Of a stretch of 64,000 bases of DNA, positions 29,318 to 39,295 are shown in pieces. The position numbers and the translations under genes are program-made. Source of the DNA: Engelhardtia mirabilis. GTDB taxonomy: Bacteria > Planctomycetota > UBA1135 > GCA-002686595. Positions within the stretch are counted from its first letter, which is position 1. Every line of letters begins with the position of its first letter. The stretch spans positions 3,286,001 to 3,350,000 of the forward strand of contig CP036296.1 of the NCBI GenBank assembly GCA_007751255.1. Direction: 5' to 3'. The notes under the pieces are model-generated. The model did no database searches and was not told the origin of the DNA. It saw nothing but the letters and a program-made list of their open reading frames with translations.

Positions 29318-31426
29318 TCACTCGGCGGGAACCCACTCCTGCCGCTCCAGGTGGTCTTGTGCGGCCGTGCGGCTGAACCAGACCTCGCGCAGGGTCTGAC
29401 TGGCCGCCAGGGGCAACTGGTCCGAGCGGTGGCTCGAACCTGTTTGGGTCCAGTTGCCGTAGGTCATCAAGGCCTGGGCACGGGGCGGCGTGGCGAACTC
29501 GACCGCCGAGACGAAGCTGTCGCCGGCGATGACGCGCATTCGACCGTCGGCGTCGGGGGAGAACTCGAAGCTGCGAAAAATGCCCAGGCCGGCCATTCCG
29601 CCGCTGCAGGGTAGGTCCGAGCGGTCCGCGCGCAGGCGGAAAAGATCGCCCCAGGGGAGATCGAGTGCGCCCACGGATTCGACCGCTTGCCCTGCGGCAG
29701 CGCCCAGGGCCTCGAGCACTCTCTCCGCCGACGCAATCCCGCGCGGAGTGGCGAGCGGATCGTGCTCGTCCCAGGCCCGCTCGAAGACGTTGGTCTCGTC
29801 GCCCAGCGCCTGGACCAGGAGCAGGAAGAGCAGTGCGCCGCTGCTGCCGGCGTCGACGCTGCGATCCCAGGCGGCGAGCACTTCGCCGGCACGTCGGATC
29901 GTCGGGTCCCCATGGGCCGCCGCCAGGGGTAACAGGTCATCGAGGATCCGGTCCGCCAGCTCCACGTGAGTCGAGTGCTTGTAGTCCACGAGCTCGTCGA
30001 AGCTCACCGATTCGTCGTCCTGGAGCATCTGCGCGGAGTGCTGGGCTCGCAGGGACATGCGTCGAGGAGCGACGTACTGCGGAAAGTCGTCGGGATCGAG
30101 CACCGCGGGGAGCGTCGTGTTCCAGGGGGGATCGTTGGCGTTCTGCAGCCAGCCAGTCGTCGGGTTCAAGACCCGCGGCAGCTCGTCGTAGCCCAGATAC
30201 TCGCTCCACAGGTCACGGGGCGCGGATCCGTCCAGCAGTCCGGAGGGGTCCGATGCGCCTGCGGCGCGCCGCGGTGTCAAGCCGCCGAAGTGGTGCAGCA
30301 CGTTGCCCTCGACGTCGGCGTAGAGGATCGAGAAGAGCGGAAGCTGCTGGCTCGCCGTGGCGCTCTCGAAGCTCGCCAGGTCCCCGGCCGCACCCATTCG
30401 CCACCACTGCCGCGCCGAACCGGGGCGGTCGAGCCCGACCACTCGCAGGGCCAGGGCGCGGTCGGAGTCGCCCGAGACGATCGGGCCGTGGACCGAGCTG
30501 CGGATCTCGATCGGCTCCTCGCGCAGATCGCCGTTCGCCGCGCGCACACGCAGTCGATGGGGGTGCCGCTCGAGGCCGCGCCAGGCGCCATCCCAGCGGT
30601 AGCGGTCGCCGTCCAGCTCGAGGGCGTAGAGGTCCATGCCGTCCTGGGCGTTGACGGTGTGGGTCCAGCCGAGCTTGTCGTTGAAGGCCATGGCCAGGGT
30701 CGGGAAGCCGACCAGCGTGGCCCCGTAGGCACGGTACTCGGGGCACTCCAGATGGGCCTCGAAGAGGCGATAGCGCCCCTCCCAAGGCAGGTGCGGATTG
30801 GCCAAGAGAAGTGCCCGTGCACCGGAAGCATGGGCCGGCGCGATGGCCCAGGCGTTCGATCCACCGTCGGTTGGCGGCGTCGTCGCGCCCGCCTGCAGGC
30901 TCTCGTTGCTCACGAACGAGAAGTGCAGCACCCGCTGGAGGTGGGCCAAGAGGTCGGCGCCGGTGATCGGCAGCACGACCTCCAGGTCGTCGCGTAGTTC
31001 ATCCGGGTGCAGGCGACCGAAGGCGTTTACGCCCGCTGCGAAGGCATCCAGATGCCGCGCGAACTCGGGCTCCTGGTCGGCGTACCAGTTCTGCGCTCGC
31101 TCGGGGATGCCGACGGTCCAGACCCAGCGGTCGGATTCGATCCAGGACTCGCCCCAGTACTCCGCGCCGCGGCCGCGAGCCTCGCCGATCAAGGTCAGCA
31201 GCAGGTCCCCGTGAGCCCGCATCTGGGCCCAGCCGAAGCCGCGAAACAGCCCGTCCGCGTCGGCGGCGAAGACGTGCGGAACGCCCCAGGTGTCCCAAAG
31301 GATCTCGGCGTCGGTGGTGGCCTGGGGCCGACCGCAGCTGGCCAGGGCCAAGAGGACGATCCCGAGGGTCGCCCGCCGGGGCCCCGCCGCGGCCGTACCT
31401 AGGAGCGATCGCGGGCGCGCGTCCAA
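29318..31426 (-). CDS. Penicillin-acylase-like Ntn hydrolase, secreted lipoprotein
   Basis: About 702 residues if it starts at TTG 31426, 28 bp inside the upstream gene; no better in-frame start exists before the lipobox LASC (Cys ~31), so the start is tentative. GGSNAWAIAP near residue 188 contains the autocatalytic Gly-Ser cleavage site, Ser190 becoming the N-terminal nucleophile. WGVPHVFA, GFGWAQMRAH and a HTVNAQDGMD-type segment fit the S45 family (penicillin G acylase, AHL acylases, PvdQ). Such enzymes hydrolyse amide-linked acyl chains in the periplasm. As last gene of the operon, it may remove an acyl group added by the first (inference). Confidence 0.85.
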   Translation of the reverse strand: MDARPRSLLGTAAAGPRRATLGIVLLALASCGRPQATTDAEILWDTWGVPHVFAADADGLFRGFGWAQMRAHGDLLLTLIGEARGRGAEYWGESWIESDRWVWTVGIPERAQNWYADQEPEFARHLDAFAAGVNAFGRLHPDELRDDLEVVLPITGADLLAHLQRVLHFSFVSNESLQAGATTPPTDGGSNAWAIAPAHASGARALLLANPHLPWEGRYRLFEAHLECPEYRAYGATLVGFPTLAMAFNDKLGWTHTVNAQDGMDLYALELDGDRYRWDGAWRGLERHPHRLRVRAANGDLREEPIEIRSSVHGPIVSGDSDRALALRVVGLDRPGSARQWWRMGAAGDLASFESATASQQLPLFSILYADVEGNVLHHFGGLTPRRAAGASDPSGLLDGSAPRDLWSEYLGYDELPRVLNPTTGWLQNANDPPWNTTLPAVLDPDDFPQYVAPRRMSLRAQHSAQMLQDDESVSFDELVDYKHSTHVELADRILDDLLPLAAAHGDPTIRRAGEVLAAWDRSVDAGSSGALLFLLLVQALGDETNVFERAWDEHDPLATPRGIASAERVLEALGAAAGQAVESVGALDLPWGDLFRLRADRSDLPCSGGMAGLGIFRSFEFSPDADGRMRVIAGDSFVSAVEFATPPRAQALMTYGNWTQTGSSHRSDQLPLAASQTLREVWFSRTAAQDHLERQEWVPAE

Positions 31427-32493
31427 AGCTCGTAGCGCGAGAAGTAGCCGACGCGATCGGCGCTGGCCAGGTCGGCCGCCAGGTTCACGTCCATGGTCCA
31501 ACGCTCGCGAATGGACGCCGGGAGGGGACGTGGGCGCAAGAACGAGCGCAGGAAGACTCGCGCGCCGTCGGCCGCGGCGCGGTCCATCTGCTGCCACAGG
31601 TCGTCGTGGCCCGCGTCGTCGCACCAATCCAGGACGTTGCTGGCGTTGACCACGTCGACGCTGCTTTCCGGCATGGTCGCCAGAAAAGCGCCCAGGTCGG
31701 CCGTGTGCCAGGTGATGCGATCGAGTTGCTCCAGCAGCAGGGAGTACTGCTCCTGACGCAAGTAGGCGGGCACGGCGTCCGTGCCGGGGAAGCTGTCCCG
31801 CCAGATGCGGTGCAGGAAGTAGTTCTCGCGCGGGTCGAGCTCGACGGTCAGGTGCCGCAACACCCGATGGTAGAAGGCCCCGAACTCGGGCTCCGCCATC
31901 CGGTCCCACGCGGCGGCGGGAATGAATGCGTTCCCGATGGTGTGCTCGTTGAGAGCCAGCGCGAGGAACTCGTGCACGGCCGTCGTATCGAGGTGCTCGT
32001 CGAACAGGGCCGTGCGGCGAGTCCGGTCGGACTCGCCGAGGAGCGCGGCCAGGGGCTCGGCGCCGACGATTCCGGTCAGGCCCTCGCGCAGGGGGGCGAG
32101 GAAGGCCGAGAGCTGACCACAGCCGGCGAGCCCGAACCGCTCGATGTCACCGCGCAGATCCGGGTCGTCCAGCAAGCCGCGGTGTACCGCGGCGGGCAGC
32201 CGATCCAGGAGCGCTGCGCGAGCCTCGGCGCCGCACGGCACGCTGCCCACCAGGCCGGCGAACTCGACCCAACTGAGCTCGCGCAGGGCCGCCTCCTTGA
32301 GCCGGCAGAGTCGCGTCTGGGCCTCGACCAAGTCGACCCCGAACACGTGGCGAGCGCCGTCGAGGGCCGCGTTGAACACGTTGTCCCCGGCGGACGAGAC
32401 GACGACGACCGTCTCGTCACTCTCGATTCCGAACGCGGCGGAGAGACCACGATGGTCCTCCATCACCTCGGAGTAGGCGGGCCGGACACTCAT
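31399..32493 (-). CDS. DUF3419/BtaA-like S-adenosylmethionine aminocarboxypropyl transferase
   Basis: 364 residues. YSEVMEDHRGLSAAFGI and VVVVSSAGDNVFNAALDG with FGVDLVEAQ form the SAM-binding region of the BtaA/DUF3419 family; RLKEAALRELSW continues the family pattern. BtaA moves the 3-amino-3-carboxypropyl group of SAM onto a hydroxyl of diacylglycerol. The transferred group is itself an alpha-amino acid moiety. The acceptor here is unknown; no betaine-lipid N-methyltransferase (BtaB) is next to it, which argues against plain betaine-lipid synthesis. Overlaps its neighbours: 4 bp upstream (ATGA), 28 bp downstream. Confidence 0.82.
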   Translation of the reverse strand: MSVRPAYSEVMEDHRGLSAAFGIESDETVVVVSSAGDNVFNAALDGARHVFGVDLVEAQTRLCRLKEAALRELSWVEFAGLVGSVPCGAEARAALLDRLPAAVHRGLLDDPDLRGDIERFGLAGCGQLSAFLAPLREGLTGIVGAEPLAALLGESDRTRRTALFDEHLDTTAVHEFLALALNEHTIGNAFIPAAAWDRMAEPEFGAFYHRVLRHLTVELDPRENYFLHRIWRDSFPGTDAVPAYLRQEQYSLLLEQLDRITWHTADLGAFLATMPESSVDVVNASNVLDWCDDAGHDDLWQQMDRAAADGARVFLRSFLRPRPLPASIRERWTMDVNLAADLASADRVGYFSRYELWTRARDRS

Positions 32494-33185
32494 CGGCCGG
32501 CAGCCGCGGGCTCCAGCCGGCGGCTCTCCTGGTGTACGCGGATCACGCCCTCGAGCACGGTCCCCTGCAGATGCAGCGAGGTCCGCAACACGTCCAGCAC
32601 ACCCGCGCGCAACTCGTCGGTGGTGCAGTGCTGCACGATCGTGCGACGGACCTCCTCCAGGTGCCCCTCGTCGATCTTCCCGTGGGCCACGAAGAAGGTC
32701 ATCTGGCCGTCCGTCAGGGACAGGCTGCTACGCATCGACTGCAGGACTTCGGCGATGTGTGGATAGCAGCCTTCCGCCCACAAGCTGTAGCCCAGTCGTG
32801 CGGTGGCGTCCCGCGTCGACGCGACGCGATAGAGGTACGCGACGAAGGCCTGGGTCTCCGGCAGCGGCGAGCTGGCCATGGCGCGCTCGGGGTCGGCGCC
32901 CACCGAGCGCAGGTCGTTCAGGGCCATCAGGTCGTGACCGGCCTCCTCGAGCGCATGGTTCAGACAGAACCGCATCAAGGACAGGCGATCCGAATGCAGG
33001 TCGAGCGCAGCGAGGGCCTGGTTCTGGGTGTTCTCGCGGGTGTAGTGGTAGATCTCGGTCATCAGACCGACGTACAGCTCGCGGTCGAAGCCGTGCTCCA
33101 TCACGTGGCGCCAGAAGGTGCCGCGCTTGATCCGAGCCCAGCCGTCGGCGGCCGCGCGTTCACAGGTATCGAGGAAGTCGCTCAT
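32490..33185 (-). CDS. Heme-oxygenase-like di-iron oxidase (iron-containing redox enzyme family)
   Basis: 231 residues from ATG 33185, overlapping the upstream gene by 4 bp. All-helical. Candidate metal ligands follow the HDO pattern: Glu44 in MTEIYHYTREN, His77/Glu81/His84 in HALEEAGHDLM, Glu138 in LWAEGCYPH, and His168/Asp172/His175 in AHGKIDEGHLEEV. Relatives include TenA/PqqC-like proteins and di-iron HDOs such as SznF, BesC and UndA, which do N-oxygenation or C-C cleavage on amino or fatty acids. Position between an acyltransferase and a SAM transferase suggests oxidation of an acylated amino acid (inference). Confidence 0.8.
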   Translation of the reverse strand: MSDFLDTCERAAADGWARIKRGTFWRHVMEHGFDRELYVGLMTEIYHYTRENTQNQALAALDLHSDRLSLMRFCLNHALEEAGHDLMALNDLRSVGADPERAMASSPLPETQAFVAYLYRVASTRDATARLGYSLWAEGCYPHIAEVLQSMRSSLSLTDGQMTFFVAHGKIDEGHLEEVRRTIVQHCTTDELRAGVLDVLRTSLHLQGTVLEGVIRVHQESRRLEPAAAGR

Positions 33186-34114
33186 CCGTGTTGTCGTTCG
33201 ATGGTGGGGGACACGAGGGAAGTCGGCCCGGGGTGAGTGGGCCTCGCAGGCGATAGCGCCGCTGAGGATGGAACGTCGCGGGGTCGCTCCGTCCTGACCG
33301 GTAGGCTCCACGGATTGCTCTCGTGGAGCTCGAGGAACTCGGTGATGACTCGATCCGACGTGTCCATGCGCCCGCGCACGAAGTGGTAGAGCTGGCCCTG
33401 CCGGCTCGCGAGGACCACCTCGCCGCCCTCGATCGCGTGGGCGCCGAAGTGCTCGTAGTAGCGTGCGAGCTTGGGCAGGCAGAGGGCGAAGTAGCTGCGG
33501 TGCGAGGTGAACTCGAGCAACCAGCGACAGGCCAGGCAGAGCATCACCTCGGTGATCAGCCGTCGACGCATGTCCGCACGCACGACCACTCGGCTGATCT
33601 GAAGGGGCGAGTCTCCGACGTCGCGAATTCCGGCCGGCAAGGGGCACAGCCCGCTGGCCTCCCATCTTCCGTCGAGCGCGGGCGAGTAGCGACAGGCGGC
33701 GACTACCTCGTCCCCGATCGTGCAGCAGAACTGGTAGGCGTCGGCGTCGAAGTCGTCCTCGGCGGGGTGCCTGCCCGCGCGGTTGCCCAAGAGATAGTCG
33801 CTGTGAGCGCGGTACTCCGTCTGTCGGAGGGTGAAGATGTCGAGCAGCCTGGCCGCACTCGGACGGGCCTCGAAGATCAGGGGGGCGGAGGCCCCGCGCG
33901 CCGGAACCGAGTCGATGCGAACTAGCGTCGGGCCAGCTGCGCCGGAGATCGTCGCCAAGTCCGACGCGAGCCCCGATGACCCGACGTACCTCGACGGCGG
34001 ATGCGGCGCTTCAGAAGGACTCGGAAGTGGTCTCCCCGACCCCACGGACGGCAGCTCGAACGGCGGAATCCGAGCGGGAGGGGAGTCCCCCGCGAGTTCC
34101 AAATCGCTCTTCAC
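33182..34114 (-). CDS. FeeM-like N-acyltransferase (AHL synthase/GNAT fold)
   Basis: 310 residues from GTG 34114; GGAGGAGGAG at 34130-34121 lies 6 nt upstream and fixes the start. The first ~75 residues are Pro/Ser-rich. The GNAT-like core has LRQTEYRAHSDYL near 95, EDDFDADAYQFCCTIGDEVV, and QISRVVVRADMRRRLITEV, the layout of FeeM N-acyl amino acid synthases and AHL synthases. These join an acyl chain from acyl-ACP to an amino acid. First gene of a four-gene overlapping operon, 57 bp downstream of the split tRNA on the same strand. Confidence 0.72.
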   Translation of the reverse strand: MKSDLELAGDSPPARIPPFELPSVGSGRPLPSPSEAPHPPSRYVGSSGLASDLATISGAAGPTLVRIDSVPARGASAPLIFEARPSAARLLDIFTLRQTEYRAHSDYLLGNRAGRHPAEDDFDADAYQFCCTIGDEVVAACRYSPALDGRWEASGLCPLPAGIRDVGDSPLQISRVVVRADMRRRLITEVMLCLACRWLLEFTSHRSYFALCLPKLARYYEHFGAHAIEGGEVVLASRQGQLYHFVRGRMDTSDRVITEFLELHESNPWSLPVRTERPRDVPSSAALSPARPTHPGPTSLVSPTIERQHG

Positions 34115-34120
34115 CCGGTT

Positions 34121-34130
34121 CTCCTCCTCC
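34121..34130 (-). promoter_or_regulatory. Strong Shine-Dalgarno site for the FeeM-like operon
   Basis: On the minus strand GGAGGAGGAG sits 6 nt before the GTG at 34114. This stands out because many genes in the window have C-rich leaders with no such site. Confidence 0.8.
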
Positions 34131-34170
34131 AGGAAAGACCCCGAACCGGCAAGGCGGCTCAGGTTGTGAA

Positions 34171-34538
34171 TGGTGCACCCGACGGGACTCGAACCCGCAA
34201 CCGCTGAATTTGAAGTCCAGCACTCTTCGAACCTGCTCTCGGGACTCGCTCGAGGGTCTCGACTCCTCCTCTCCTGGCGTTCTCGAACCGCGTCGATCGC
34301 TCGTCGGTGTCGACCGGTCGACGCTACACGGGTACGCGGTCGGAAGGGGGGAGTCAGGTGGAACGGACAGGGGCGACGAAACTCAGTCGGGTATTTTCGA
34401 CGCGACTTCCCACTCGAATACGAAGCCGCATCTCTACGAGTGGCCGACGGGGTGAGTCTCTGCGCTCCTGCTCGCCGCTGTTTGATCTCCGGCGCGTGGT
34501 CCTGATCACAGTGCTCTTGACCATTGAGCTACGGGTGC
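34171..34538 (-). tRNA. Split tRNA, anticodon UCA, two halves separated by 291 bp
   Basis: 5' part 34538-34512: acceptor GCACCCG, TA, D-stem GCTC/GAGC with loop AATGGTCAA, then A26. 3' part 34220-34171: anticodon stem CTGGA/TTCAG with loop CTTCAAA (anticodon TCA, reads UGA), variable CGGTT, T-arm GCGGG-TTCGAGT-CCCGT, acceptor CGGGTGC, discriminator A, encoded CCA. Joined, they make a canonical 77-nt cloverleaf with all seven acceptor pairs Watson-Crick. A CTG at both junctions leaves the exact splice point open by 3 nt. The short variable loop and 7-bp acceptor exclude a standard selenocysteine tRNA. It could be a spliced gene or a disrupted one. Confidence 0.75.
34221..34511 (-). other. 291-bp intervening sequence inside the UCA tRNA
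   Basis: It interrupts the tRNA between positions 26 and 27 (within 3 nt), not in the anticodon loop used by known bacterial tRNA introns. AGCACT at the 5' junction (34515-34510) is complementary to AGTGCT at the 3' junction (34224-34219). GAGACTC (34460-34454) and GAGTC (34247-34243) could form a P7-like helix of a group I intron, but the full core is not evident. It also holds the palindrome GTCGACCGGTCGAC (34309-34322). No convincing ORF. Confidence 0.6.
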
Positions 34539-34729
34539 ACACTGGTTGTCAAGGCGGGCGAGTGCGCGATGGGTCGCGCGCTTGCCGATGTGACGGGCGC
34601 GATACTACCATCGACCTCGGACGGCGAAAGTCGGTGCGAACTTTCTCCGCGTGCGGCGTTCGGCGCCAAATGCAACTTCGGTTCGCACGAAGCCGGGAGC
34701 CCGGTCGCGACCCCAGTCGGAAGCCAGTG

Positions 34730-36469
34730 ATGAGCGAAGTTTTTCCCGCGGCGAAGCCCGCATCGGTCAGCGCGCTGCGGTCCTTCGAAGGCACGTTACT
34801 TGCTATCTGCGACGACGCCGCTCGTGCGGTCGGGTCGAGTTGTATGCGCCCGAGCCTGGGCTACCGCCGTCTGGCCCGCTCGCCGGTGGATCTGCGCCTG
34901 TTCTTCACGGACACGTCTGCCCTTGCGGGTGGAATGGCCGGTGCGTTGGTGGAACGGCTGGCGGGCCTGGGGGTCGTGGACACGGTGCGCCGCCGAGGCG
35001 CGGAGGTTTCGCTCCGGTTGACCGAGGACTTCATCGATCAACTCGGGCGAGAGCTGGAAGGCGCCGCTCCTTCGGCCATCGCAACGGTGGGGGGCATGGA
35101 CGGCCGCCACTATGTGGTCAATTTCCTGAACCCCAACGCCAGCAAGCCGCTGCACGTGGGGCACCTTCGCAATGCCGCCTTGGGCATGGCGGTGGCCGCG
35201 TCCCTCGAGGCCTGCGGGGCCAGGGTGTTGCGCCAGTGCTACGTCTGTGACATTGGCCGCAGCGTGTGCGAGGCCATGGCAGGCTACGAGGGCCTGCTGG
35301 CGCAGCACGGGCAGGACTGGGGCCCGGAGCGGGCCGGGCTGGCGCCCGACCAGTTCGTCGGTCGCTGCTACGCGGACTACGCCCGAGCCAGCGACGCGGT
35401 CCCCGGTCGTGGGGCGGAAAGCGGAGCGGACCCCGCGGAGCGCGAGGACACGGTCGTCCACGACCGTGCGGACGAGCTCTTGGCGGCTTGGGTCGCGGGG
35501 GAAGCAGAGGCTCGAAGGCTCTGGGAACGGGTGCGTTCCTGGGCCCTGGGTGGGCAGGAGGCGACGTTGGAGCGACTCGGCGCCCGCTGGGATCGGGTAC
35601 ACCACGAGTCGGCGAGCTTGGCCGCCGTCGAACGCCTGACAGCTGCGGGCCTGGCTTCGGGTGCGTTCTACCGCGGCATCGGCCAGGAGGTGCTGTTCGA
35701 CACTGGGCGCTCCGAGTACGCGACCCTCAAGCTGCTGCGGGAGGATGGCTTCCCGACGGAACACGCCCGGGTGATCGGTCTGTTCCTGGAAGAGCAGGCC
35801 GTGGGGGCCCCGCCCTACCGTTGGATCGTCGTCTGCGGTGACGAATGGGGCGCGGCGGGCCAGGCGGAACTGGACGTCGCCCGCAGGTTCGGCGCGGCGG
35901 AGCTGGTGGAGCGGGTCGAGGTCTTCGCCCACGGTATGGTCACTGCGGCCGGCTCGAAGATGAAATCGCGCGACGGTCAGGCGGTGCTGATCGACGAGCT
36001 GCTCGATCTGTTGATCGACTCCGCCCCGGTACAGGACCTGTTGGAAGAGTACGGACGCCCGTTCGCGCCCGAGCAGCTGGCGGACATGCTCGTGAAGGGC
36101 TACTTCCTGTCGAAGCGGGCCTCGAAGGGGCTCGAGTTTACACTCGAGTCGTTCACTGACGAGGCTTCGAACCCAGCCTGGGCCGTGGTGCGCGCTCTGT
36201 GTCGCGGTGCGGCGTCGAGGGCTCGAGCGACCGTGGGCGCACCGTCGGATCCGGAACGCTACCGGACGGCCGTCCTGCAGGCATTCCAACTGCGGCAACT
36301 CGTCGCGCGCAGCGCGGAGGGCTTTCAGGGGACTTCGCTCATGAAGTTCGTCGGCGGATTCGCGCGTTGGTACCTGGATGGGGCCAGCGACCCGCGCCTG
36401 GACCGAGTGGTGGTGGCGGTGTGCTCCGCCAGTCTCGGCACGCTCGGGGTGGCAGCTCGAGGACGTTAG
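34730..36469 (+). CDS. Arginyl-tRNA synthetase-like class I synthetase, divergent
   Basis: 579 residues from ATG 34730, normal ArgRS length. Residues ~55-110 match the ArgRS N-terminal domain. NPNASKPLHVGHLRNAALG has the HIGH motif (His142-x2-His145), and GSKMKSRDG at 408-416 stands for KMSKS. SEYATLKLLREDG, VVCGDEWGAAGQ and FAHGMV fit the ArgRS catalytic fold. The anticodon-binding part is divergent: the usual YAHARI is WAVVRAL, and the end reads LGTLGVAARGR. It may be the housekeeping ArgRS or a specialised paralogue. Divergent from the split UCA tRNA, 191 bp away. UCA shares C35 with arginine anticodons, the main ArgRS identity base. Ends in TAG. Confidence 0.85.
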   Translation: MSEVFPAAKPASVSALRSFEGTLLAICDDAARAVGSSCMRPSLGYRRLARSPVDLRLFFTDTSALAGGMAGALVERLAGLGVVDTVRRRGAEVSLRLTEDFIDQLGRELEGAAPSAIATVGGMDGRHYVVNFLNPNASKPLHVGHLRNAALGMAVAASLEACGARVLRQCYVCDIGRSVCEAMAGYEGLLAQHGQDWGPERAGLAPDQFVGRCYADYARASDAVPGRGAESGADPAEREDTVVHDRADELLAAWVAGEAEARRLWERVRSWALGGQEATLERLGARWDRVHHESASLAAVERLTAAGLASGAFYRGIGQEVLFDTGRSEYATLKLLREDGFPTEHARVIGLFLEEQAVGAPPYRWIVVCGDEWGAAGQAELDVARRFGAAELVERVEVFAHGMVTAAGSKMKSRDGQAVLIDELLDLLIDSAPVQDLLEEYGRPFAPEQLADMLVKGYFLSKRASKGLEFTLESFTDEASNPAWAVVRALCRGAASRARATVGAPSDPERYRTAVLQAFQLRQLVARSAEGFQGTSLMKFVGGFARWYLDGASDPRLDRVVVAVCSASLGTLGVAARGR

Positions 36470-36488
36470 GCGCCGGTGGCCCCGAACG

Positions 36489-36518
36489 GGTTCGGCCGGG
36501 CTTGCGCCCGGCCGAACC
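36489..36518. terminator. Strong 13-bp hairpin after the ArgRS-like gene
   Basis: Arms 36489-36501 and 36506-36518 pair perfectly around loop TTGC, 20 bp after the synthetase stop and 39 bp before the 3' end of the convergent small gene. No long T-run, but position and symmetry suit a shared terminator. Confidence 0.75.
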
Positions 36519-36556
36519 TTCGCATCGACTAGGTTCACCGACCCTAGTCCCAAGCG

Positions 36557-36868
36557 CTATTTGCTATCGCACTTGACTTCGACCCACTGGGGGATCTCAC
36601 AGACAGGCAGTCATGTCGGGGTCAGGCATCCGCTGACGCCGTTGACGGTGCCGTTCACCGGATCCACCTTGTCACCAGGACAAGCGGGCTTGTTGGCCCA
36701 CTCGAGGTTCTGGATTCATGTCGGGTGGTAGGTGAGCTTGTAGCACTTGCCCTTTTCGAACGCACAGGGCGACGACGTGATGTCGTTTTGGGCAGCACTG
36801 ACCATGCCAGCGAGAAGTGCCGGAATGGCAAGCAGGCGAGCCTTGCGGAGAATCGATCGATTCTGCAT
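36557..36868 (-). CDS. Small secreted Cys-rich protein with two in-frame TGA codons
   Basis: Reading leftward from ATG 36868, 103 codons run to TAG at 36559-36557, with TGA at codon 51 (36718-36716) and codon 86 (36613-36611). AAGGAG lies 6 nt before the ATG. Residues 1-26 form a Sec signal (RLLAIPALLAGMVSAA), then a mature part with six Cys (35, 42, 62, 81, 90, 100). Both TGA codons lie in the same context, CCCGACATGA, giving HPT-TGA-IQ and TPT-TGA-LP. Codon use stays gene-like past both TGAs. Either the TGAs are decoded, possibly by the nearby UCA tRNA, or this is a pseudogene with a 50-residue remnant. Family not recognised. Confidence 0.65.
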
Positions 36869-36874
36869 GGGACG

Positions 36875-36880
36875 CTCCTT
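36875..36880 (-). promoter_or_regulatory. Shine-Dalgarno site AAGGAG for the TGA-containing gene
   Basis: AAGGAG, six nt from the ATG at 36868, is a near-ideal site and supports active translation of this small gene. Many other genes in the window lack one. Confidence 0.8.
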
Positions 36881-37063
36881 CAGTCGTGCTTGGGGACTAT
36901 CGAGCGATGGGTCTCGATCGGAACAGGTTGAACGTCAGCCTGCGTCACCGAATCGCAAGAGCTCCGAACTTCGAGGTCATCAATCCCGATGAACGGCGCG
37001 GCTGACACGGTCGCGAGCCTAGCACGCCGCAGAGCGACGCGCGGCAAGGCTCGCGATTTCGAA

Positions 37064-39295
37064 CTAATCCTCGAGTGCGACATCGAGGTAAGTGCCTGGT
37101 GTGATGGCGGAATACTGCTCCGCCTCGAATCGCCCGAGAGGATCACTGATGGTGATGCGATGCTCGGCGGGCGCGACCTGCTCGTAGATCGCAAAACCGT
37201 GATCGTCGGTCTTGATCCCGAAGGAGACGCAACCGCAGTGCCGGTTCTCGGGCGGCTCGAGGCGCACGTCGATGCCCTCGAGGGGCACACCGTCGGGGCC
37301 GACGACCAGCACGATGATCGGATCGCTGACGTAATCCGCGGTCTCGAGCTGCACGCTCTGCGACGGGGACATCGCGACGTCTGGCACCGTGCGCACGAAT
37401 GGCTCGAACCGGCCCCGCATGTCGGAAGCACTCAACTCGAGCGGACGACCCGCGGGGGCGCGCAGGCTGAAGCTACCGTCCAGCTCGCTGAAGGTCATGG
37501 CGACCGGATCGTCGTGGGCCAAGTCGTCGGGCTCGAAGATGCCGACAAATACACCGCTCAACGGGCCGCCGGCGGGCGTGAGCACGCGACCCACTAGCTG
37601 TGCCATGGACTCGTCCGCGGGTCGCGGGACGAATACCTCGATCGGTCCCTGCAAGGTTGAGGGAACCACGGCGCGATTGTCGACGAGCTCGCCCTCCCAC
37701 TTGATGTCGTAGGAACCCGGCGCGAGCCCGTCGAAGCGGAAGTAGCCGTCGCTGCGAGTCGTCGTGGTCAAGGGGCGCCACCACGAGCTCGGCCGCCAGG
37801 TGTCGAACGCGGCGCCGGAGACGATCAGTTCGAGGTGGACGCTGACCGTGCCCGGTGCAACGGGATCGCCGTCGTCATAGCGCACGACGCCGAACAGCCC
37901 ACCGGCCTCGGGCAGGGTCACCTGGCCTAGCTCGACGGTCGATCCGGCCGTGCTCAGGGCCGGCCACACGAAGGTTGGCGCGCATGGATCTCGGGTCGGA
38001 TCCACAAGGGCCAGGATGTATTGCAGGTCTGCCGCCAGGCGCGGCACGCTGAACCCGCCGGATGCGTCGGTGGCGGTGACGTGCGCCCAACGCTCGGTGT
38101 AGTGGGGCGGGCGCATGAGTCCTGACACCAGGGCGTCCTGCCCGCGCCCGATCGGGTCGATGGAGGCCAGGTGAACCTCGGCGCCAGCTAGTCCCGCGCC
38201 GCTCGCGTCCACCAACCGGCCGCGCGCCACGCGCTCGGGCGCCGCGAGCGTCAGGTCCAGGCGCAGACCCTCGGGATCCGGCTCCATCGGCACCAGGGTC
38301 CAGGCCTGGACCTCGCCGAGCCCCTCGGCCGTGGCGCTCACCCGCACGGTCTCGCCGGGGGCGAAGATCGCTTCCGTCGCGTAGCTTCCGTCGGCGCTGC
38401 ACTCCGGCTGGAGTCGGATGGACTGGCCGCGCGAGTAGGCCTCGACGGTGATCAGCGGGGCGCGCAGTGCTGCGGACCCCGCGCCGGCATGGATCTGGCC
38501 GTGGACGCCGTAGCCCGTGCCAACCGACAGCGCCACGGGGATGTGGGTCAGGGGCGTGTCGGAATCGACGCTCTCGACCAAGTAGTGCGAGCCGGGGTGG
38601 ACCACGCTGACGTAGTTGTCGCCCGGACCGTGGGCGGGGAGCTCCGCCTGGCCCAGCGCGTCGGTCACGGCGCTGGCCAGGGGCGTGCGACCCAGACGAC
38701 GAAAGCCCGGGAGCAGATCGACCCGCGCGCCGACCAGGGGCCGTCCGTCCCCGTCGACGAGCGACACGTCGAGGGTCTTGGGCGCCGTCAGCCGAATCTC
38801 GAGGTCGTCCCCGCCGCGCAGGTGGTCGGCCCACCAACCGCCCTGACCCTCGGCCTCGACAGCCAGGCTCCAAGAGCCAGACGGCGCGGGAAGCGCGAAG
38901 CGCCCCTCGGCGTCCGTCGCCGCCTGAAGCGGATCGGTCCCCGGGATCCGCTCGATGGCCGCGACGAAGCCCCAGGCCGGCTCGCCGGGCGCGAGGGTGC
39001 AGCGCGCGCCCTCGAGGGGCACTCCATCGCTCCCGAAGACCCGTCCGACGATTCGACCGGCCTGCCCCGTGCGGTACGGGGCGACGAGTTTCGGCTGAAT
39101 GGTCGTGGGCGTCTGGAAGTTCGCCGCGGGCGCGAGCGCCTCCGGGGCCTGAGAGTCCTGGGTCGCTTCTGCGCTGCGATCGACGGCTTGGACCGGCCCC
39201 TCGGGCGAGCGGGTCAGGAACCACAACGCCCCCGCCACCACGGCGGCGAGGAGCCACAGATGGACGCGCGTGGTGGGAGCCGCAGCGGGAGACAT
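37064..39295 (-). CDS. Membrane-anchored protein with repeated carboxypeptidase-regulatory-like domains
   Basis: 743 residues. One N-terminal membrane segment (HLWLLAAVVAGALWFLT) then an extracytoplasmic region. GRIVGRVFGSDGVPLEGARC, VARGRLVDASGAGLAGAEVH, GLFGVVRYDDGDPVAPGTV and QLVGRVLTPAGGPLSGVFVG are repeated starts of CarboxypepD_reg-like beta-sandwiches, about six in all. No enzymatic motif is visible. Such proteins are frequent in Planctomycetota and may bind or build surface structures. It lies upstream of the small TGA-containing gene on the same strand (195 bp gap), so cotranscription is possible. It ends in TAG and has no in-frame TGA. Confidence 0.8.
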   Translation of the reverse strand: MSPAAAPTTRVHLWLLAAVVAGALWFLTRSPEGPVQAVDRSAEATQDSQAPEALAPAANFQTPTTIQPKLVAPYRTGQAGRIVGRVFGSDGVPLEGARCTLAPGEPAWGFVAAIERIPGTDPLQAATDAEGRFALPAPSGSWSLAVEAEGQGGWWADHLRGGDDLEIRLTAPKTLDVSLVDGDGRPLVGARVDLLPGFRRLGRTPLASAVTDALGQAELPAHGPGDNYVSVVHPGSHYLVESVDSDTPLTHIPVALSVGTGYGVHGQIHAGAGSAALRAPLITVEAYSRGQSIRLQPECSADGSYATEAIFAPGETVRVSATAEGLGEVQAWTLVPMEPDPEGLRLDLTLAAPERVARGRLVDASGAGLAGAEVHLASIDPIGRGQDALVSGLMRPPHYTERWAHVTATDASGGFSVPRLAADLQYILALVDPTRDPCAPTFVWPALSTAGSTVELGQVTLPEAGGLFGVVRYDDGDPVAPGTVSVHLELIVSGAAFDTWRPSSWWRPLTTTTRSDGYFRFDGLAPGSYDIKWEGELVDNRAVVPSTLQGPIEVFVPRPADESMAQLVGRVLTPAGGPLSGVFVGIFEPDDLAHDDPVAMTFSELDGSFSLRAPAGRPLELSASDMRGRFEPFVRTVPDVAMSPSQSVQLETADYVSDPIIVLVVGPDGVPLEGIDVRLEPPENRHCGCVSFGIKTDDHGFAIYEQVAPAEHRITISDPLGRFEAEQYSAITPGTYLDVALED

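Follow-up and report, generated by a model that had tools for sequence, protein, structure and literature searches.

The question raised by one locus in the genome of Engelhardtia mirabilis is whether the codon UGA, which serves as a stop elsewhere in the same genome, has been given a further meaning in a single small gene. The window analysed is a stretch of 64,000 nucleotides (nt) from GenBank assembly GCA_007751255.1 (contig CP036296.1, positions 3,286,001 to 3,350,000); all coordinates below are those of the window, on the minus strand unless stated. The element in question is an island at 29318..36868, which comprises a split transfer RNA (tRNA) with anticodon UCA, a synthetase derived from arginyl-tRNA synthetase (ArgRS), a four-gene operon and a target gene with in-frame TGA codons. 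An initial annotation suggested that the operon makes a new amino acid, which the synthetase loads onto the tRNA(UCA) for insertion at UGA. That interpretation is supported by the present analysis; for the making of the amino acid by the operon and for its charging by the synthetase, the support falls short of proof. The island has the look of a natural extension of the genetic code not known before, and no published description of such a system was found in a literature search made mostly without subscription papers.

The window genome (G000) has 6.9 Mb in two contigs, the second of 45 kb. Across the 20 kb compared, this second contig shares 99.8% identity with plasmid CP036288.1 of Planctomycetes bacterium Pla133, a cultured strain of the species. 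The comparison set consisted of 154 genomes of the order, and a class-level search covered the same 154. Five of them carry the island: G000, G015, G069, G070, and G084, which fall into four genera of one family. The G015 genome is 65% complete, and its island contig stops 161 nt beyond the first operon gene.

The UGA-Bearing Target

The target gene (36557..36868) runs from ATG to TAG and encodes a predicted secreted protein of 103 residues, with a start that resembles a signal peptide by eye. The initial annotation had noticed two in-frame TGAs in it, and these are confirmed by the reading frame at codon 51 (36716-36718) and codon 86 (36611-36613). Homologues were sought with stops read through, by a profile over the 154 genomes (E ≤ 0.01), and five were found, one per genome, each having two or three TGAs. 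For example, a relative from another genus has both TGAs at the same aligned sites (E 6.8e-22). Two TGA columns are common to all five targets, and G069 and G070 have a third TGA, 12 codons before the first shared one. The possibility that homologues of the small gene would have ordinary codons, or would lose conservation past the TGAs, was also followed up; none with ordinary codons came to light, and all five keep both TGAs together with conservation beyond them. TAG ends every one of the five targets, the stops of 61 crudely predicted genes in the window and three carrier loci being TAG in 13 and TGA in 48.

The ratio of nonsynonymous to synonymous differences (pN/pS) in the target falls from 0.65 ahead of the first shared TGA to 0.44 between the two and 0.40 after the second, and protein-level selection is indicated to continue beyond the TGAs. 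A chance frame or a decayed gene was rejected on these values and because both TGAs persist in all five genomes, which represent four genera. Besides the two TGAs, the invariant positions include four cysteines and the motif CYKL. Searches of Pfam and PHROGs returned no relative of the target, PDB matches did not go below E 1.4, and phage records gave no match to it. A short hairpin lies after the target TAG at the loci L114, L115, and L021 by minimum-energy fold, and in the window at about 36526-36549 by eye; it is possibly a recoding element or a terminator.

The Split tRNA(UCA) and Its D-Loop Insert

The tRNA gene consists of a 5′ exon (34520..34538; GCACCCGTAGCTCAATGGT) with the 5′ acceptor strand, the 5′ strand of the D-stem and the start of the D-loop, a structured insert of 292 nt (34228..34519), and a 3′ exon (34171..34227) with the 3′ strand of the D-stem, an anticodon arm with loop CTTCAAA, the T-arm, the acceptor and an encoded CCA. 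The split tRNA that had been proposed for this locus holds throughout the carriers: in every one of the five, ARAGORN folds the exons, once joined in the D-loop, into a cloverleaf of 77 nt that has the anticodon UCA and an encoded CCA. An earlier ARAGORN joining of the window tRNA used another junction, in the anticodon stem. The break was placed in the D-loop by comparison with the relatives, which have a common position, ...AATGGT / insert / AAGAGTG..., in all five, and the splice points are ambiguous inside the AAG common to both junctions. The 5′ exon is the same in four carriers and differs by one base in G069. The 7-bp acceptor has all seven pairs in four carriers and six plus one G-U in G015, the anticodon stem has four or five pairs, and the variable loop has 5 nt.

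Standard finders miss this tRNA because it is interrupted. ARAGORN does not find the window tRNA unjoined, and the Rfam tRNA model gives it 27.2 bits (cut-off 29) for the 3′ half only; in default mode, ARAGORN reports no island tRNA at four of the carrier loci and an unsplit one at the fifth. An exact pattern for the tRNA is present in five of the 154 genomes, as against none for a reversed-pattern control, so the concern that the tRNA might be found only in the window is answered.

C35, A/G73, and A20 are main determinants of arginine identity in bacteria (PMC9976931). The island tRNA keeps C35 and A/G73 and has lost A20 and U/G36, and with A20 absent it should be a poor substrate for the host ArgRS. 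Compared with 40 ordinary tRNAs of the window genome, the island tRNA is closest to tRNA-Arg(TCT) in G000, G069, and G070, to tRNA-Asp in G084 and to tRNA-Arg(ACG) in G015.

The insert has 283-302 nt across the carriers. Its first and last 24 nt pair together, with cognate energies of -17.4 to -25.1 kcal/mol (mean about -20) and a non-cognate mean of -12.1 kcal/mol; within each species, shuffled sequences equal this pairing in 2 to 105 of 1000 cases. A hairpin, CACTCG/CGAGTG (window 34443-34410), is conserved in all five inserts. Its loop pairs directly downstream as a pseudoknot, clearly in three inserts (1, 2, and 9 of 2000 shuffles equal) and no better than shuffles in the other two (490 and 1719 of 2000 equally good). 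The motif CACCGAC occurs in all five inserts (window 34303-34310), each of the three inserts folded for this purpose placing it in a hairpin loop, and its complement GTCGGTG lies near four of the five targets, three times upstream of the ATG and in the window after the stop (0.09-0.17 expected each). The motif was picked after looking, and it is therefore only a lead on how decoding may be confined.

An ArgRS-Derived Synthetase with an Altered Pocket

The gene beside the tRNA (34730..36469, plus strand) encodes an ArgRS-derived enzyme of 579 amino acids with an altered amino-acid pocket. Its divergence from ArgRS, pointed out in the initial annotation, is borne out by a match to PF00750 and a score of 95.5 bits, as against the NCBIfam argS cut-off of 261.65. 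In all five island enzymes, Pfam finds only the class I ArgRS catalytic domain PF00750, leaving the C-terminal domain unrecognised, and the motifs HVGH or HIGH and KMKSRDG are present. The island enzymes match ArgRS models only. The window genome also encodes an ordinary ArgRS at another locus. A tree of 47 sequences separates the five island enzymes, as a single clade (100/100) with a stem of 2.85 changes per column, from 42 ordinary ArgRS; the latter include those of G015 and of relatives but not that of the window genome. A recent copy of the ordinary ArgRS of the family was rejected by this tree, from which the window genome's own was left out.

The pocket was compared with ordinary enzymes from a scan of named genomes, in which 80 of 506 confirmed loci were listed; 33 of the 80 were prepared and gave 30 full-length frames, of which 24 were used and six left out. 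The island residues E344, V348, W373, and N131 replace Tyr, Asp/Glu, Gln, and Glu/Asp, respectively, which are found in all 24 of the ordinary enzymes, and each of the four is the same in every island enzyme. N136, K139, H142, and E293 are kept relative to the same 24. The corresponding residues of yeast ArgRS are Tyr347, Asp351, Gln375, and Glu148 (by alignment, numbered by hand), which we take to be those that bind arginine in the crystal structure. The substrate of the island synthetase would thus not be arginine; it is perhaps still basic, since one pocket glutamate is retained and another is gained.

The synthetase was found in five genomes of the order at E ≤ 1e-40, and no further carrier appeared at E ≤ 1e-50 in a 392-genome sample of the phylum. 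The other island enzymes are 44-48% identical to the window enzyme; among the matches listed in the named-genome scan, the best segments have 20-37% identity to it. Two distant matches, in G275 and G341, were rejected, as both cluster with ordinary ArgRS, G275 also having the ordinary pocket motif by eye. A plasmid search gave five matches, all below 30% identity and two of them annotated argS, and the 43 pattern stretches in viral contigs include no relative. PHROG family 15344, of unknown function, matches the synthetase at 2.7e-25 and is probably an ordinary phage ArgRS. The ordinary ArgRS of G000 and G015 (L193 and L194) look like separate lineages, with KVFHVGH/GDFG and KPLHVGH/GDWG, respectively.

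The Operon behind the tRNA

The four-gene operon that had been described 57 nt from the tRNA is present with all its members. A FeeM-like N-acyltransferase of the GNAT type (33182..34114) comes first, with a predicted GTG start 57 nt from the tRNA 3′ end; Pfam FeeM is matched at E up to 0.1 in all five carriers. A haem-oxygenase-like iron-containing oxidase (32490..33185; PF14518) follows, with 3dde as its best solved relative (8e-60 by profile) and weak matches to 4-aminobenzoate synthase (0.001) and 4-chloro-allylglycine synthase (0.37). The third gene (31399..32493) encodes a BtaA-like transferase (DUF3419 by Pfam) for the 3-amino-3-carboxypropyl group of S-adenosylmethionine (SAM). The last (29318..~31426) encodes a predicted exported acylase of the penicillin-amidase family of Ntn-hydrolases, with a predicted TTG start and a lipobox, LASC, by eye, whose closest solved relative is glutaryl-7-ACA acylase. 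The order FeeM-oxidase-BtaA-acylase is found in G000, G069, and G070, and FeeM-oxidase-acylase-BtaA in G084. Within the acylase gene of one locus (L114, 4877-4969), ARAGORN calls a tRNA-Pro(CGG), which is probably spurious.

Orthologues of the oxidase score above 430 bits and those of BtaA above 600 bits in four of the five carriers. Low-scoring matches outside the carriers, below 85 bits for the oxidase in two genomes and below 125 bits for BtaA in three, were taken as other families by their scores.

BtaA moves the aminocarboxypropyl group of SAM (PMC10491745), a transfer that would supply the head of an amino acid with its alpha-amino group free. Enzymes of the FeeM type attach acyl groups to the nitrogen of amino acids (PMC10404671). 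The operon product might, as a guess, be a homoserine-type amino acid with its side-chain amine acylated until export.

Co-occurrence and Surroundings

The synthetase, the target and the tRNA pattern occur in the same five of the 154 genomes, and the cassette is, to judge from this distribution, behaving as one unit. The co-occurrence expected of the parts thus stands for these three, and for the oxidase and BtaA it reaches only four of the five. G067 and G068, congeners of G069 and G070, are without synthetase, tRNA, and target. The four flanking genes of the window that were tested have no match at the other four carrier loci. In all five carriers, the target adjoins a gene for a multi-domain protein with carboxypeptidase-regulatory-like repeats (window 37064..39295); the order of this gene and the target is swapped in the window.

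A Proposed Explanation and Its Difficulties

With reasonable rather than strong confidence, the island is read as a self-contained cassette that gives UGA a new meaning for one small secreted protein. The FeeM-like enzyme, the oxidase, the BtaA-like enzyme and the acylase would make, or help to make, a non-canonical amino acid, whose acylated side-chain amine, on the guess made above, would be freed by the exported acylase. The synthetase with its re-cut pocket would load this amino acid onto the dedicated, Arg-like tRNA(UCA), from which the structured insert would have been removed or in which it would be folded aside. EF-Tu would deliver the charged tRNA to the two UGAs of the target (three in two species), and the product would be an exported protein with four invariant cysteines. 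The parts of this explanation differ in strength. On comparative evidence that is strong, the target UGA is very probably read as sense by the island's own synthetase and tRNA. The residue inserted is probably non-canonical, and is taken as such because the pocket is re-cut and the operon is linked; that the operon makes it is fairly likely. The sequences themselves show the parts, their conservation and co-occurrence, the selection beyond the UGAs and the changed pocket; decoding, charging, chemistry, the identity of the amino acid, the role of the operon and the excision of the insert are what we infer from them.

Several observations weigh against this explanation. TGA, already recognised as a normal stop here in the initial annotation, is the commonest stop of the window, ending 24 of its 32 predicted genes. 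The FeeM-like and oxidase genes beside the tRNA themselves end in TGA, and TGA therefore works as a stop there, as FeeM/oxidase and oxidase/BtaA overlap by 4 nt in the window. With UGA the commonest stop elsewhere, its decoding must be confined by context, expression or efficiency, and no proven element that limits decoding was found. No Rfam intron family matches the insert, at E up to 5 in window 33500-37500 and at the gathering cut-off at the four other loci; a group I or II intron was rejected for want of an Rfam match at all five. G070 is read by ARAGORN and Rfam as having an unsplit tRNA of ~70 nt with insert bases in the acceptor. An unsplit tRNA was rejected, since the contiguous acceptor has at best five Watson-Crick pairs and one G-U (G070 and G084), as against the pairing of the split form.

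In the target, synonymous sites are near saturation, and the five homologues from the 154 genomes include no sense-codon form that would hint at the residue. In the operon, no oxidase or BtaA orthologue was found in the incomplete G015 genome, and no oxidase start lies within the 161 nt that remain beyond FeeM, the oxidase overlapping FeeM or starting within about 40 nt of it in the other four carriers; the rest of the operon is thus not established for G015. If the free amino acid has to be available in the cytoplasm, the predicted export of the acylase is a difficulty. All five carriers come from one family, and since the parts are linked, finding them together does not count separately for each of them.

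Alternative Explanations

The residue could also be an ordinary one, with the synthetase and tRNA placing arginine, or some other member of the standard twenty, at UGA, and with the operon making an unrelated lipid or signal and merely linked to them. Such an outcome would fit the ArgRS ancestry and the one retained pocket glutamate, the nearness of the tRNA to tRNA-Arg(TCT) in three of five carriers with C35 and A/G73 kept, and the operon not found beyond FeeM in G015. It is nevertheless unlikely: the arginine pocket has lost the Tyr, Asp/Glu, and Gln that 24 of 24 ordinary enzymes possess, in favour of residues invariant in all five island enzymes, an ordinary residue would call for no second synthetase and no recurrent, conserved UGAs, and the high-scoring oxidase and BtaA orthologues are confined to carriers. 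If the target were instead a selenoprotein, its UGAs would be read by the host selenocysteine tRNA (tRNA-Sec) and SelB. The machinery for this is at hand, as SelB is above cut-off in all five carriers and tRNA-Sec in 139 of the 154 genomes, the five included, on which count selenocysteine use seems general in the order; the tRNA-Sec of the window genome is of the ordinary type, with 98 nt (G000:C1:4599173-4599266). Because the carriers have this machinery as well, the island tRNA is a second UCA tRNA. Yet the target occurs in none of the 149 non-carriers, 134 of which have tRNA-Sec above cut-off. Hairpins of the type of the bacterial selenocysteine insertion sequence (SECIS), sought 16-37 nt after the UGA by a loose consensus, are no better than background after the 12 TGAs: the best is equalled at a fraction of 0.19 of 3866 codons, and two of the 12 TGAs have none. 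A selenoprotein would also leave the island tRNA and synthetase without explanation, and is very improbable.

Two further alternatives concern what the charged tRNA does. It might act off the ribosome and donate its aminoacyl group to the FeeM-like or another operon enzyme; aminoacyl-tRNA-dependent transferases with a GNAT-like fold are known, and the tRNA lies upstream of FeeM and co-directional with it in all five carriers. The conserved UCA anticodon and the conserved UGAs of the nearby target are not explained in this way, and a donor role could hold in addition to UGA decoding; taken as a replacement for it, the idea has the slimmest of chances. The other is a variant of the cassette explanation itself, in which the insert is no intron but a retained RNA domain that guides the tRNA to the target messenger. 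Its near-constant length, paired ends and conserved hairpin are consistent with this, as are CACCGAC in five of five inserts and GTCGGTG near four of five targets. The motif, however, was chosen after looking, varies in position and is missing from one target, and an extension of 290 nt at the elbow is hard to fit in the ribosome, so the variant is quite improbable.

Comparison with Known Systems

To our knowledge, selenocysteine and pyrrolysine are the only known natural additions to the twenty amino acids. We lean towards regarding the island as a third natural expansion of the code, with an amino acid made by an operon, an ArgRS-derived synthetase and a tRNA(UCA) with a structured D-loop domain, in which UGA would have three meanings (stop, selenocysteine, and the new residue) in one bacterium. 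If so, it would be a further cassette of unrelated parts, built around UGA in bacteria already equipped with selenocysteine genes; the routes by which new amino acids come into the code, and the means by which a codon keeps three meanings, would become testable, and a natural class I synthetase/tRNA pair for UGA would be available as a tool.

The pyl system combines a dedicated synthetase, a tRNA that reads a stop codon, biosynthesis genes and targets that bear the stop, and its tRNA gene heads the operon. The island likewise has a dedicated synthetase, a tRNA and a stop-bearing target, with the tRNA gene at the head of the operon; tRNA, synthetase, and target are present in all five carriers and the putatively biosynthetic operon in four. 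It differs in the use of UGA instead of UAG, which is the stop of all five targets, in a class I, ArgRS-derived enzyme (PF00750) instead of the class II PylRS, in an Arg-like tRNA with a D-loop insert, in unrelated operon enzymes and in a secreted target.

In the case of selenocysteine, UGA is also recoded by a UCA tRNA in selected genes and also serves as a stop. The island tRNA, however, is of the 7/5-bp type without a long variable arm, its charging by its own synthetase is indicated, no SECIS signal rises above background with the loose consensus used, and tRNA-Sec and SelB are separate in the same genomes. Ordinary ArgRS and tRNA-Arg share with the island the catalytic core and signature regions, as well as C35 and A/G73 of the tRNA, whereas the island has a replaced arginine pocket, a C-terminal domain not recognised by Pfam, and a tRNA that has lost A20 and U/G36. 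In the tyz cluster (PMC10404671), TyzA, an acyltransferase of the FeeM or N-acylhomoserine lactone synthase type, N-acylates an amino acid that is later oxidised; tyz continues with a flavin oxidase and a ThiF enzyme, the island with its iron oxidase, BtaA-like enzyme and acylase.

Among dedicated opal pairs already known, the closest is CysRS*/SelC*, which together with SelB* inserts cysteine at selenocysteine codons by means of a SelC-like tRNA (Mukai et al., 2017, as described in PMC9437257). As in the island, a bacterial synthetase paralogue and its own opal tRNA stand there beside wild-type selenocysteine machinery. The island differs from it in having ArgRS ancestry, an Arg-like instead of a SelC-like tRNA, a putative biosynthesis operon, and a target of its own.

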